Assembly (NCBI GenBank): GCA_017621795.1
Contig: JAGASJ010000006.1
Span: 1-48,200, forward strand
Direction: 5' to 3'
Length of the DNA stretch: 48,200 nt
From: Oscillospiraceae bacterium
GTDB lineage: Bacteria > Bacillota > Clostridia > Oscillospirales > Oscillospiraceae
In this document: piece after piece, positions 4,915 through 12,252 of the stretch
How positions within the stretch are numbered: the stretch's first letter is position 1
Layout of the letters: each line of letters begins with the position of its first letter
Notes under the pieces: generated by a model
Databases searched by the model: none
What the model saw: the letters and a program-made list of their open reading frames with translations, nothing else
Told to the model about the DNA's origin: nothing
Program-made: the position numbers and the translations under genes

Positions 4915-4943
4915 TTGACAGCATATCCTGGCGGTGCTATGAT
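4915..4943 (+). promoter_or_regulatory. Consensus promoter of the leader and ABC exporter operon
   Basis: Perfect -35 TTGACA (4915-4920), 17-base spacer and -10 TATGAT (4938-4943). Transcription should begin near 4950, leaving a leader of about 185 bases before the first exporter gene. Confidence 0.8.
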
Positions 4944-4977
4944 ACTGGTAAATTATGAAAGAAAGGAGCAATTAAAT

Positions 4978-5037
4978 ATGTTGATGAACAGAAGGATTAT
5001 TCATAGCGGAAGTATTGCTCCTTTGCGGTCAGTATAG
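4978..5037 (+). CDS. 19-aa leader peptide upstream of the ABC exporter
   Basis: ORF encoding MLMNRRIIHSGSIAPLRSV with a strong AAAGGAG site 9 bases before the ATG and a TAG stop. It sits between the promoter and an intrinsic terminator, all upstream of the exporter. The segment holding its Shine-Dalgarno (AAAGGAGCAAT, 4962-4972) is perfectly complementary to ATTGCTCCTTT inside its own distal coding part (5014-5024), so its translation and the RNA fold are coupled. The arrangement matches bmrB, the leader of bmrCD in Bacillus subtilis, which controls the exporter by ribosome-mediated attenuation. I see no residue similarity to bmrB; the likeness is in layout. Confidence 0.6.
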   Translation: MLMNRRIIHSGSIAPLRSV

Positions 5038-5069
5038 GTGTTTTGTGCGCTTATTTACTGCGTTTACAA

Positions 5070-5100
5070 GGGTGCAGGCTTCTGCCTGCACCCTTTTTTT
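5070..5100 (+). terminator. Attenuator: intrinsic terminator before the ABC exporter
   Basis: Perfect 10-bp GC-rich stem (GGGTGCAGGC / GCCTGCACCC), a TTCT loop and seven T residues, ending 33 bases before the exporter ATG and downstream of the leader ORF. No gene precedes it on this strand other than the leader, so it is best read as a regulated attenuator. Confidence 0.75.
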
Positions 5101-5133
5101 ACGCCTAAGATCAATAAGAAATGGAGATCGAAA

Positions 5134-9352: not shown

Positions 9353-9916
9353 TTATTGGTCAACGTGTTTTTCAGGATGATACAGGATGTACTCGAAGGT
9401 GTTTTCGGTCGTATCGTAGTGTGTCTCAAATTTGGTGTTCTTGATATACTGAAAACCGCATTTTTCAATGACCCGCTTGGATTGCGCATTGCGGTCAAAA
9501 TGACCCACAATGATAAAGTCCAGCTTTTTCACACGGAACAGCCAGTCAATGACTGCCTTTACCGCTTCCGGCATCAAGCCCTGACCCCAGTATGCTTTGG
9601 ACAGCACATACCCGATTTCGCGGCCCTGCAGCGCATCCAGCTCCGGGTAGTACGCTTCCCGGTACTGCTCAATACCCAGCGAGCCAATAACCTTCTCGTT
9701 GTGTTCCAGCGCAAAGGTCTTTTTGTCGTTTATGAAGCGCTCTAAAATCATTTTGGATTCCTCTATATTGCGATGAGGATTCCAGCCTGCCATCTGACCG
9801 ACCCCGTCCACACGTGCATACTCGTACAGATCGTATAGATCCGATTCCTTCCAGGGCCGCAAGGTAAGACGATCTGTGGTCAGTACAGTGCCCGTGATGT
9901 CAATTTGACTGTTCAT
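9353..9916 (-). CDS. GNAT N-acetyltransferase (RimJ/RimL type) under an attenuator
   Basis: A 187-aa cytoplasmic acetyl-CoA-dependent transferase. It opens with TDRLTLRPWKESD, typical of the RimJ/RimL group, has the acetyl-CoA loop GQGLMPEA in the middle, and the common FDRNAQSKRVIEKCGFQ segment near the end. GGAGGT precedes the ATG. It is preceded by a consensus promoter, a 30-codon leader ORF and a terminator-like hairpin that ends just before its ribosome site. Members acetylate ribosomal protein N-termini or small amines, including some antibiotics. The leader arrangement favours a stress- or drug-inducible role, but the substrate cannot be read from sequence. Confidence 0.85.
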   Translation of the reverse strand: MNSQIDITGTVLTTDRLTLRPWKESDLYDLYEYARVDGVGQMAGWNPHRNIEESKMILERFINDKKTFALEHNEKVIGSLGIEQYREAYYPELDALQGREIGYVLSKAYWGQGLMPEAVKAVIDWLFRVKKLDFIIVGHFDRNAQSKRVIEKCGFQYIKNTKFETHYDTTENTFEYILYHPEKHVDQ

Positions 9917-9935
9917 TTTCTTACCTCCTAAATAT

Positions 9936-9979
9936 TAAAAAGCAGTGCAAACAGAAACACTTGTTTCGGCTTGCACTGC
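9936..9979 (-). terminator. Attenuator hairpin before the GNAT gene
   Basis: On the minus strand GCAGTGCAA and GAAAC pair with GTTTC and TTGCACTGC, followed by TTTTT. It ends about 20 bases before the acetyltransferase start and lies between that gene and its leader ORF. The plus strand also ends in TCTTTTT, so it could act in both directions. Confidence 0.7.
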
Positions 9980-10010
9980 ATCTTTTTACAATCTTCGCTT
10001 TCGAATGATC

Positions 10011-10103
10011 TTAAAAAGCGTATGACAATGTAAGCCCGACCGCATGCTGAGGCATACCGTTACCGGACTGGATATCCACCGCATTGAAGCAAAATGCGAA
10101 CAT
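10011..10103 (-). CDS. 30-aa leader peptide upstream of the GNAT gene
   Basis: ORF beginning MFAFCFNAVDIQ and ending GLTLSYAF, with AAGGAAGGAG before its ATG and a consensus promoter just upstream. A longer in-frame version reaching 10328 would cross the promoter and a terminator and is not credible. The RNA is highly self-complementary: GACAATGT over the start codon pairs perfectly with ACATTGTC near the stop (10100-10107 with 10024-10031). Smaller stems lie inside (CGCATT/AATGCG and GTATGC/GCATGC). It is therefore either a translated attenuator leader, a structured regulatory RNA, or both. The terminator before the acetyltransferase follows it. Confidence 0.6.
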   Translation of the reverse strand: MFAFCFNAVDIQSGNGMPQHAVGLTLSYAF

Positions 10104-10133
10104 TGTCAGCGCTCCTTCCTTATGTTTTATGCG

Positions 10134-10162
10134 ATTATACACCCTGTAATATTCGTTGTCAA
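10134..10162 (-). promoter_or_regulatory. Consensus promoter of the leader and GNAT unit
   Basis: Minus strand TTGACA (10157-10162), 17-base spacer, TATAAT (10134-10139): a perfect match to the housekeeping consensus. Transcription should start near 10127. Confidence 0.85.
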
Positions 10163-10204
10163 CATCATTCTTGCTTATATTTGTTGACTCGGTTGAACAA
10201 TGCC

Positions 10205-10417: not shown

Positions 10418-11647
10418 TCACAGCACATAATCGGCAGCATTGATGACCTTAGTCTCCAGTGCGCCAGTAATTCCGCCCATGGCATTCTTCAGCATATCAC
10501 CAATACCCATTCCGTCCTCGCCCTCTGCGGTACCAATGGATCCGCAATCTGTACAGATCATGGTTACTGCATCTTCCAGATCCTCACAGCACTTCACAAC
10601 ACCGCAATCCTCAATATGCAGTCGTTCTACGATCAGCTCCTTGGGAATATCGTCCGCAATCTTAACAATACCGCAGTCGCAGACATCAATGCCCAGAGGC
10701 TGATGCTCCAACATCCATTTGGTGATCTTTACGACAGGCTTATCCTCCAGAGTTGCTCCCTTGGGCTTGGCAAGCTTCACTTCGCCGGAGATTTCTGTAA
10801 TCACCGCTACCAGCTTTTCCTTGAGATCCTGGGGTACTTTCGCATCACCACGAATATTGAGGTATTTCAGTTCGTCCAAAGCATCCGCATTCTCGGGTAC
10901 AGTCACATCCCCGATCACATACAGCTGCTTGCCGTAGCGGCGCAGGGTGTCTTCGTCCAAGGTGATATCATCCAACACGACAGCAGTGCCGTCCGGAACG
11001 ATAATAATCTCTGTTCTTTCATCGATCATATCGATGAGAGACTCCACCTTGGACTGGGAAATAATTGCTTCCTTGGTGCTGAAGGTCACGCCCTTAGCCT
11101 TCAGCGTATCTGTGTCCAGCTCAGGGTCAACCATGATCATCCGGCGGCCGGACCAGTACAGGCTGTTCTTTGCCCGGAGCGCAAACAGTTTGTCAATAAC
11201 TGCACTACGCTTCAGCACAATCGCGCCATCGGGATAACAGGTGGTAGAGCCATTTACATTTACACCATTGAGGAGTGCATAAATGCTTTCCGGGCAGGTA
11301 AGGCTGCCGTTAATGGTCATACCCACACACTGGGCCAGCTGCTGTTGAGTATCAGGACCGATGGTAAGGGCACCATTGACTACCATATAGTATTTTGAGG
11401 TAGGTACGACATCGCCGCTCTTGATCTCGCTGCTGCCGTTGATAGTACGCAGATCAACGTCTCCCTCAATTTCCAGAACATTGGCGCAGTTCAGGGTAAA
11501 GGGCAGCTTATTCATTACTGCTTTTGCGTTGGGGCTTGTCAGTACCATGGCACAGTTAATAGTAATTTGCTCGTAGTGAGCGTAGTTTTCTTCCAGTGCA
11601 TTTCTTGCATCGCAGGTTGCGCAGTTGATCATCAGTTTCTTTGCCAT
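10418..11647 (-). CDS. Repeat protein with Asn-Gly/Asn-Cys rungs, ECF sigma partner
   Basis: A 409-aa protein with no signal peptide or membrane segment. The first half carries spaced INC, LNC, ING and VNG turns between short hydrophobic strands, which suggests a beta-solenoid, loosely like bactofilins. The second half again alternates strands with short acidic loops and ends in cysteine-rich pieces (DVCDCG, EDCG, KCCED, ICTDCG). The start is ATG 11647 with GGAGGAAACGATT before it; an upstream ATG at 11662 is part of that ribosome site. The gene follows the sigma-factor gene directly and the 53-aa gene follows it. I do not recognise the family. A polymer, scaffold or metal/redox sensor is conceivable, but that is a guess. 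Confidence 0.75.
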   Translation of the reverse strand: MAKKLMINCATCDARNALEENYAHYEQITINCAMVLTSPNAKAVMNKLPFTLNCANVLEIEGDVDLRTINGSSEIKSGDVVPTSKYYMVVNGALTIGPDTQQQLAQCVGMTINGSLTCPESIYALLNGVNVNGSTTCYPDGAIVLKRSAVIDKLFALRAKNSLYWSGRRMIMVDPELDTDTLKAKGVTFSTKEAIISQSKVESLIDMIDERTEIIIVPDGTAVVLDDITLDEDTLRRYGKQLYVIGDVTVPENADALDELKYLNIRGDAKVPQDLKEKLVAVITEISGEVKLAKPKGATLEDKPVVKITKWMLEHQPLGIDVCDCGIVKIADDIPKELIVERLHIEDCGVVKCCEDLEDAVTMICTDCGSIGTAEGEDGMGIGDMLKNAMGGITGALETKVINAADYVL

Positions 11648-11661
11648 AATCGTTTCCTCCA

Positions 11662-12123
11662 TTATCTTTCAAGGTTTTGTTTTAAGAATTTTCGGCAGCG
11701 GGACAGCTTTGAGCGAATCGTTCCTGGCGGGAGATTCATCATTTGAGCGATTTCTTCAGCTGAGTAGCCGTCAAAGTACCGGAGTTGAAAAATCGCTCTA
11801 TCTTGCGGATTGATGCTCTGAAGCAGCATAGCATTTTCAATTTCCTGCATTCCCGGATCATCTATGTATTCAGGCTGCCAATTCTGCTCATATTCACTTT
11901 CCAGAACGGCCCGACGGTAGCGATCAAAGAACAGGTTTTTGAAGGTTCGGAAAAGCCACGCCCGCTGCTTGCTGGGGGACAAATCCGCTACGGTTTCTGT
12001 ATTCATGAGCGCTTTCACAAAGGTTTCCTGTACGAGATCTTCCGCAAGTTCCTTGCTTCCGCTCATGCGGGTCCCATAGGCCACAAGTTCTTTGTAGTGG
12101 TCTTCATAAAGTTCTTCCCACAA
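11662..12123 (-). CDS. ECF-type RNA polymerase sigma factor
   Basis: About 153 aa with region 2 (AEDLVQETFVKAL, then AWLFRTFKNLFFDRYRR) and region 4 (YSAEEIAQMMNLPPGTIRSK, a helix-turn-helix reading -35 elements). I placed the start at TTG 12123, which has AAAGGGGGG at the right distance and begins WEELYEDHYKELV as other ECF factors do. ATG 12147 lacks a ribosome site and may coincide with the transcription start. No anti-sigma factor with a membrane segment is nearby, so the repeat protein downstream, or nothing, may regulate it. An ECF-like sequence upstream suggests autoregulation. Confidence 0.85.
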   Translation of the reverse strand: MWEELYEDHYKELVAYGTRMSGSKELAEDLVQETFVKALMNTETVADLSPSKQRAWLFRTFKNLFFDRYRRAVLESEYEQNWQPEYIDDPGMQEIENAMLLQSINPQDRAIFQLRYFDGYSAEEIAQMMNLPPGTIRSKLSRCRKFLKQNLER

Positions 12124-12148
12124 AGGTTTTGTCCCCCCTTTCTGCATG

Positions 12149-12180
12149 GATAACGAATGACGAAGGCAAAGTGTTGCATC
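12149..12180 (-). promoter_or_regulatory. Possible ECF-type autoregulated promoter
   Basis: On the minus strand TGCAAC, 17 bases, CGTTA, close to the AAC/CGT pattern of extracytoplasmic sigma promoters. Transcription would begin near 12147 and so just before the proposed TTG start. The match is short and needs experimental support. Confidence 0.35.
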
Positions 12181-12219
12181 GCCAGAATAAATTTTCAAAA
12201 AGTATTTTCCATAGTAATG

Positions 12220-12252
12220 GGGCCGTAGCACTTTTGCATTTTGCTACGGCCC
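12220..12252. terminator. Hairpin between the GNAT-like gene and the sigma gene
   Basis: Perfect 11-bp stem GGGCCGTAGCA / TGCTACGGCCC. A short T-rich tail (TTTAATT) lies on the plus strand only, so its polarity does not match the minus-strand genes on both sides. Confidence 0.45.

Follow-up and report, generated by a model that had tools for sequence, protein, structure and literature searches.

A leader-terminator unit in front of a GNAT acetyltransferase gene of an Oscillospiraceae bacterium is best explained as, and very probably is, a ribosome-mediated transcription attenuator. The unit lies in a stretch of 48,200 nucleotides (contig JAGASJ010000006.1 of assembly GCA_017621795.1), which we call the window. 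Comparison of related units shows that segments 1 and 3 of its RNA compete for segment 2, with segment 4 completing the terminator, and this switch would most likely let the acetyltransferase be made only when ribosomes stall. The features are listed below in the order of transcription.

10162-10157 and 10139-10134, minus strand: promoter, TTGACA and TATAAT separated by 17 nt (12 of 12 consensus bases)
10112-10119, minus strand: ribosome-binding site of the leader, GGAAGGAG (from the sequence)
10101-10108, minus strand: segment 1, TGACAATG, the putative anti-antiterminator arm, covering the leader start codon (pairs with segment 2)
10011-10103, minus strand: leader ORF of 30 codons, MFAFCFNAVDIQSGNGMPQHAVGLTLSYAF and stop (from translation; relatives have similar leaders)
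10042-10057, minus strand: inner hairpin, GTATGC (10057-10052) with GCATGC (10047-10042) (covariation in 23 units)
10023-10037, minus strand: segment 2, GGGCTTACATTGTCA, at the 3' end of the leader (pairs with segment 1 or segment 3)
9968-9978, minus strand: segment 3, CAGTGCAAGCC, the 5' arm of the terminator (pairs with segment 2 as antiterminator or with segment 4 as terminator)
9942-9952, minus strand: segment 4, GTTTGCACTGC, the 3' arm of the terminator (covariation with segment 3)
9937-9979, minus strand: intrinsic terminator, hairpin 9979-9942 followed by TTTTT at 9941-9937 (folding against shuffles)
9353-9916, minus strand: GNAT acetyltransferase of 187 aa, the putatively controlled gene (PF13302, E = 2.3e-26)

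The elements that an earlier note had read from these letters, namely a TTGACA-N17-TATAAT promoter, a 30-codon ORF whose ribosome site is strong, a five-T terminator and the acetyltransferase, are all present; the note gave no strand, and the entire unit from promoter to GNAT gene lies on the minus strand. Seven sites of the TTGACA-N17-TATAAT type occur in the window at no more than one mismatch, compared to 0.17 expected. The description of the RNA as unusually structured also held, as the leader RNA is more stable than 200 of 200 shuffles (z −3.9 without and −5.1 with the terminator) and the terminator stretch alone folds at −25.7 kcal/mol versus a shuffled mean of −10.4. Three stems had been proposed. 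Pairing of GACAATGT with ACATTGTC is present in the window and conserved in relatives, and the inner stem GTATGC/GCATGC covaries, its outer pair being C-G in 13 and G-C in 6 of 23 units with 15 to 20 of the 23 paired at each position. The third stem, CGCATT/AATGCG, was rejected, with 4 to 13 of 23 units paired per position. A GTCCG sequence in the middle of the leader (10068-10064, minus strand) is conserved in an alignment of 35 units, its first G being invariant and its last C and G conserved in at least 90%; no pairing partner was identified for it in that alignment. Upstream of the unit, the region 10418-12231 (minus strand) encodes a 414-aa protein without a Pfam match, which adjoins a sigma-70 family (ECF-like) factor.

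Segment 2 is complementary both to the leader start (segment 1) and to the 5' arm of the terminator (segment 3) in the alignment of 35 units (A1), giving two alternative helices, 1:2 and 2:3, next to the terminator helix 3:4. In these units the terminator covaries strongly, with 29 cells changed on both sides and none of 500 shuffles as high. Helices 1:2 and 2:3 were 89% and 92% paired, neither above shuffles, as is to be expected when segment 2 itself had served to find the units. The units were therefore regathered with a covariance model (R1), which was built from the 35 units and replaced the segment 2 pattern for searching; since R1 also weighs segment 2, the ascertainment is reduced but still present. 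In compiling the 95 units, nine matches that were short or antisense, two matches of 31-32 bits (L247, L248) and repeated loci were removed by hand. The match at L228, which is without segment 2, was dropped as well. L228, L219, L238 and L240 share another leader ending (..PLYSF), their segment 2 being altered, and these four seem to form a sub-class.

From the compiled units, 70 model-aligned loci were hand-picked for a second alignment (A4), with near-copies thinned and weaker loci omitted. This alignment was fitted to helices 1:2 and 3:4, leaving 2:3 as the unfitted helix. For 1:2 plus 3:4, 96.6% of cells were paired and 12 of 18 pairs changed on both sides; the 134 two-sided change cells were equalled in none of 500 shuffles, and slid versions of the helices were 24-49% paired. 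Four pairs of 1:2 show two-sided changes, one of them being C-G in 39 units and U-A in 21. The unfitted 2:3 was 95.5% paired (slid versions 30-41%), with two-sided changes in 6 of 11 pairs and 20 cells, and five measures were reached by 0 or 1 of 500 shuffles. One pair of 2:3 is an A.C mismatch in 22 of the first 35 units, that of the window included, and is unpaired in 19 of 68 cells in the set of 70. Clear single cases are a change from U-A to C-G in 2:3 (L216), a change from A-U to C-G in 1:2 (L192) and two-sided changes in 1:2 (L206 and L177).

We also counted pairs without an alignment, anchoring on the start codon, segment 2 and the hairpin and permuting segment 1 or segment 3 among units. 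Across 91 units (L225 and L219, in which the script located no start, and L238 and L240, in which it did not locate segment 2, being omitted from the 95, and at least L177, L233 and L243 being kept with segment 3 misplaced by the script), helix 1:2 was paired in 670 of 728 cells versus a permuted mean of 636, and 2:3 in 939 of 1001 versus 925; neither observed value was reached in 1000 permutations. The same held for 72 less similar representatives (1:2, 522 of 576 versus 495; 2:3, 741 of 792 versus 728; 0 of 2000 permutations for either). By shuffles, permutations and counts that all ignore the relatedness of the units, the comparison supports two mutually exclusive helices, a predicted antiterminator (2:3) and a predicted anti-antiterminator (1:2). 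The earlier note had suggested an attenuator leader, a structured regulatory RNA or both, and the open ORF described below, the two exclusive covarying pairings and the covarying terminator give good support for both. It had also named covariance analysis over related genomes as the check, and alignments with neither codon-level conservation of the leader nor covarying stems as the outcome that would count against it; covarying stems were found, and codon-level conservation of the peptide is weak. What the note had missed was the antiterminator pairing of segment 2 with the 5' arm of the terminator, as well as the spread of the cassette in front of many different genes.

The leader ORF appears to be kept for its openness more than for its product. 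With starts chosen to favour such ORFs, an ORF runs through segment 2 in 93 of the 95 compiled units. Among the 88 units that start with ATG, segment 2 is read in frame 0 in 57 (ending like GLTLSYSF), in frame 2 in 30 (ending like GLYCRTQ) and in frame 1 in a single unit, and in all 88 no stop codon interrupts the leader frame before segment 2, compared to 34 and 25 of 88 for the other two frames, a difference that is due in part to the choice of start. Segment 2 thus hardly changes as RNA although it is read in two frames, and the leader frame stays open, so that segment 2 is conserved as RNA and the ORF is conserved as open. The C-terminal part of the peptide differs between the two frame classes while the RNA is the same. 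In a group of 23 units the peptide is weakly constrained, pN/pS being 0.71 in the leader frame versus 1.02 and 0.91 in the others.

These data suggest how the switch could operate. Without a ribosome, segments 1 and 2 would pair, segment 3 would be free, and helix 3:4 would terminate transcription. During normal translation the ribosome would end at the stop codon above segment 2, and 3:4 would again form. A ribosome halted at the first codons, by a bound drug or by some other arrest, would cover segment 1 and allow 2:3 to form, which would prevent the terminator and permit transcription of the acetyltransferase gene. Translation of the leader, early stalling and read-through are steps that we infer. 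As the peptide is weakly constrained, the unit would probably sense where a ribosome stops, near the start, and not one special arrest peptide; a position sensor for ribosomes at the first codons is probably the best fit to the weak constraint. When the window RNA was folded up to segment 3, the probability of 1:2 was 0.85 and that of 2:3 was 0.01 without a ribosome; with a ribosome at codon 3 the probability of 2:3 was 0.98, and with a ribosome at the stop codon both were 0. Across the 91 units, the number in which 2:3 had a probability above 0.5 rose from 39 without a ribosome to 77 when one sat at codon 3, and it was still 35 with one at the stop codon; 1:2 exceeded 0.5 in 37 units without a ribosome. 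By this model folding, the clean three-state logic would therefore hold for the window and in part only for other units. The open frame in 88 of 88 units, the frame classes and the folding bear indirectly on the prediction that the leader is translated and that ribosome position decides termination.

The main competing form of attenuation is a drug-specific leader of the Erm/Cat type, in which one drug would make the ribosome stall on a specific nascent peptide. This would be a sub-form of attenuation and is compatible with the ribosome-mediated attenuator; it would predict that a possible resistance enzyme is preceded by a leader ORF whose ribosome site is strong, and leaders of the window's own genus are alike in their N-terminal residues (MF.YCFN). 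We nevertheless consider it rather unlikely, as the peptide is not conserved in the way such a mechanism would ask for (the pN/pS value of the 23 units, and C-termini that differ by frame class while the RNA stays) and unrelated genes stand behind the same element. Attenuation by charged tRNA, for instance sensing of tryptophanyl-tRNA, is suggested by two units before or near trpS (L189 in genome G148 and L185 in G032), the first with four Trp codons in its leader, and in each of these genomes the trpS behind the leader is the sole trpS match. Against it, the window leader holds no Trp and no run of any single codon (over all leaders, composition was taken as a pool), and in G032 a methyltransferase gene lies between leader and trpS, so that in G148 trpS may just have moved up to first position. 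We regard this form as quite improbable. The idea that trpS is a duplicated resistant target was rejected, with one match in each of three genomes tested.

Two further explanations would make the leader ORF or the whole arrangement incidental. A ligand-binding riboswitch would agree with the covarying inner hairpin, the strong conservation of the RNA and the conserved GTCCG without a known partner; it is very improbable given that length changes between start and segment 2 keep two of the three frames (57, 30 and 1 of 88) with the frame open, and that the window has no match in Rfam at the gathering score. A relaxed Rfam search of 9900-10200 gave five sub-threshold matches, the best at 18.6 bits, and no known family of T-box, riboswitch or leader. 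Hardly credible is an arrangement of promoter, small upstream protein and ordinary terminator in which leaky read-through yields the acetyltransferase: promoter and terminator are both strong, as this would have it, but mutually exclusive covarying helices are conserved across many genera. The ribosome-mediated attenuator remains our preferred explanation.

Units of this kind are widespread in relatives. R1 matched 33 of 136 genomes of the genus at E ≤ 0.01, two of the 33 having weak matches alone, and 50 of 394 genomes of the order at E ≤ 0.001, representing 31 of 168 genera and ten family labels (one of which, f24, has a weak match only). The segment 2 pattern with up to three mismatches occurred in 34 of the 136 genus genomes, some of them chance matches without a leader (for example L116, L134 and L139), compared to 4 with the pattern reversed, and at most of the pattern loci that were read a leader and a terminator are present before different genes. 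In a sample of 391 genomes of the class, R1 and R2, with filters that lose weak matches, matched one genome beyond the order (G597) at E ≤ 1e-4. That unit (L255) precedes a methyltransferase gene, and a further ORF at the locus looks, by eye, like members of the nucleoside-phosphorylase-like group described below. The GNAT of the window has a single match in its own genome. Leader and terminator stand immediately before the gene of GNAT relatives with 77-82% identity (L061, L035, L002, L003, L038 and L039) and 68-69% identity (L006 and L016), while other relatives, such as L040 and L005, are without them; in L004, L041, L042 and L031 the leader precedes a methyltransferase gene and the GNAT gene comes after it. 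Genome G286 has three units, before a kinase-like gene and genes of both methyltransferase groups introduced below.

Mobility by viruses was considered and rejected, as the exact segment 2 pattern occurs in one stretch of viral contigs (L249) without a model match at E ≤ 0.1, and so was mobility by a Subdoligranulum plasmid (L250), which encodes a methyltransferase with 59% identity but lacks a model match and, on inspection by eye, a leader of this sort. Among phages, the window GNAT gave a single distant match (37% identity). The window itself holds another unit at 4915-5102 on the plus strand, before an ABC transporter pair, with TTGACA-17-TATGAT and a leader of 19 codons, MLMNRRIIHSGSIAPLRSV. 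Its ribosome-site stretch, GGAGCAAT, forms pairs with ATTGCTCC inside the leader, its terminator is formed by GGGTGCAGGC and GCCTGCACCC, and its logic is the same as that of the acetyltransferase unit. Its matches to models R1 and R2 are weak (E 0.009 for the genome, 0.00017 for the window) and lie mostly in the terminator.

The genes behind the element are diverse. A next gene was called in 87 of the 91 units and sorted partly by eye; a cluster of 70 members was sorted by eye on the first 60 residues, and the label kinase-like and the labels of L199 and L204 were likewise given by eye. On this sorting, 38 genes encode class I methyltransferases of one broad group (L156 and L182 being divergent) and 8 a second group, 14 encode GNATs like that of the window and 10 GNATs of a second type, six of which are long enough for a methyltransferase fusion. 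Downstream of the leader at L157 (G174) and L159 (G283), a GNAT and a methyltransferase are fused in one ORF. Five genes are nucleoside-phosphorylase-like (the one tested matched PF01048), three are kinase-like and nine are single cases, one of them a fragment (L183). The kinase-like genes (L184, L202 and L218) encode small proteins (..GKMTVGQE..), and L202, the one tested, has no Pfam or NCBIfam match. One single case is a streptomycin adenylyltransferase, ANT(6) (PF04439, E 4.3e-104; PDB, 1.1e-58; 249 of 420 bits for NCBIfam ANT_6), and another is an S66 peptidase, whose closest chains are named Peptidase S66 and MccF-like (E 3e-93; MccF itself 2e-40); an S51 peptidase, trpS and GNATs are further ones. 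The methyltransferase found behind many units matched, at L114 (1625-2410, plus strand), part of the PADLOC model mads_2 (E 4e-20, 138 residues), possibly merely through a shared methyltransferase fold.

Some of these genes look like drug-resistance genes. Induction by antibiotics and a role in resistance, which the earlier note had expected of the window acetyltransferase, are putative; the enzyme itself scored far below the curated cut-offs, with 36.3 of 190 bits for its best NCBIfam match, a RimJ-like model, and at most 23.3 bits for AAC(6') models. We tentatively raise a broader possibility, less than evenly likely in our judgement, that the cassette is one generic sensor of early ribosome arrest placed before many unrelated enzymes in one order, marking a resistance regulon in cis. 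If so, GNATs of the RimJ/RimL type, MccF-like S66 and S51 peptidases, nucleosidase-like enzymes, methyltransferases and ANT(6) would fit a defence against translation inhibitors of the gut, and the inhibitors met there would include peptidyl- or aminoacyl-nucleotide compounds like microcin C. As outlined in PMC9239234, MccG (S51 peptidases), MccF and MccE2 (a GNAT) inactivate compounds of the microcin C type. With its covariance model the element behaves like a class and is open to searching. Through it, genes whose substrates are unknown become tied to what is likely a translation-arrest signal, and candidates for resistance genes emerge in gut bacteria that are known mainly through metagenome assemblies. 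Because the constraint on the RNA (segment 2, in two frames) is separable from that on the peptide, sensing of position and sensing of a nascent peptide can be told apart.

In Erm and Cat leader peptides, a stalled ribosome frees a paired segment, in a way that depends on an arrest peptide and often controls translation rather than transcription. Release of a paired segment by a stalled ribosome is common to those systems and to the switch proposed here, and the dependence on an arrest peptide is where they differ. To our knowledge, most descriptions of antibiotic attenuators treat a single gene at a time, as do those in the papers on attenuators and uORFs cited below. By titles and abstract openings, the element is named nowhere among the matches listed in the open-licence literature. 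The Listeria hflXr/rli80 system, as far as the account in PMC6310831 goes, has an ORF of 14 residues with an RLR motif before one gene; like the unit described here, it places a short ORF over an anti-antiterminator, followed by an antiterminator and a terminator, and attenuates transcription of a resistance gene, whereas the present leaders (30 codons in the window) have a weak peptide constraint and many unrelated target genes. The toiL uORF of E. coli, in the outline given in PMC12121999, similarly responds when drugs of different classes halt ribosomes at any of several positions, among them the start codon, but its targets are translation and Rho-dependent termination in a single operon and not an intrinsic terminator. 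The motifs uORFC-6-1 and uORFC-8-2, in what PMC8632094 sets out for them, resemble our element in combining a uORF and RNA structure found by comparison and in being read as likely ribosome-dependent regulation; each is tied to one gene, mainly in the case of hflX and exclusively in that of cysS. Mechanisms of this kind are thus already known; what is new is a single gene-independent RNA cassette common to many gene families across an order, which also differs from the known systems in keeping its switch segment in two reading frames.
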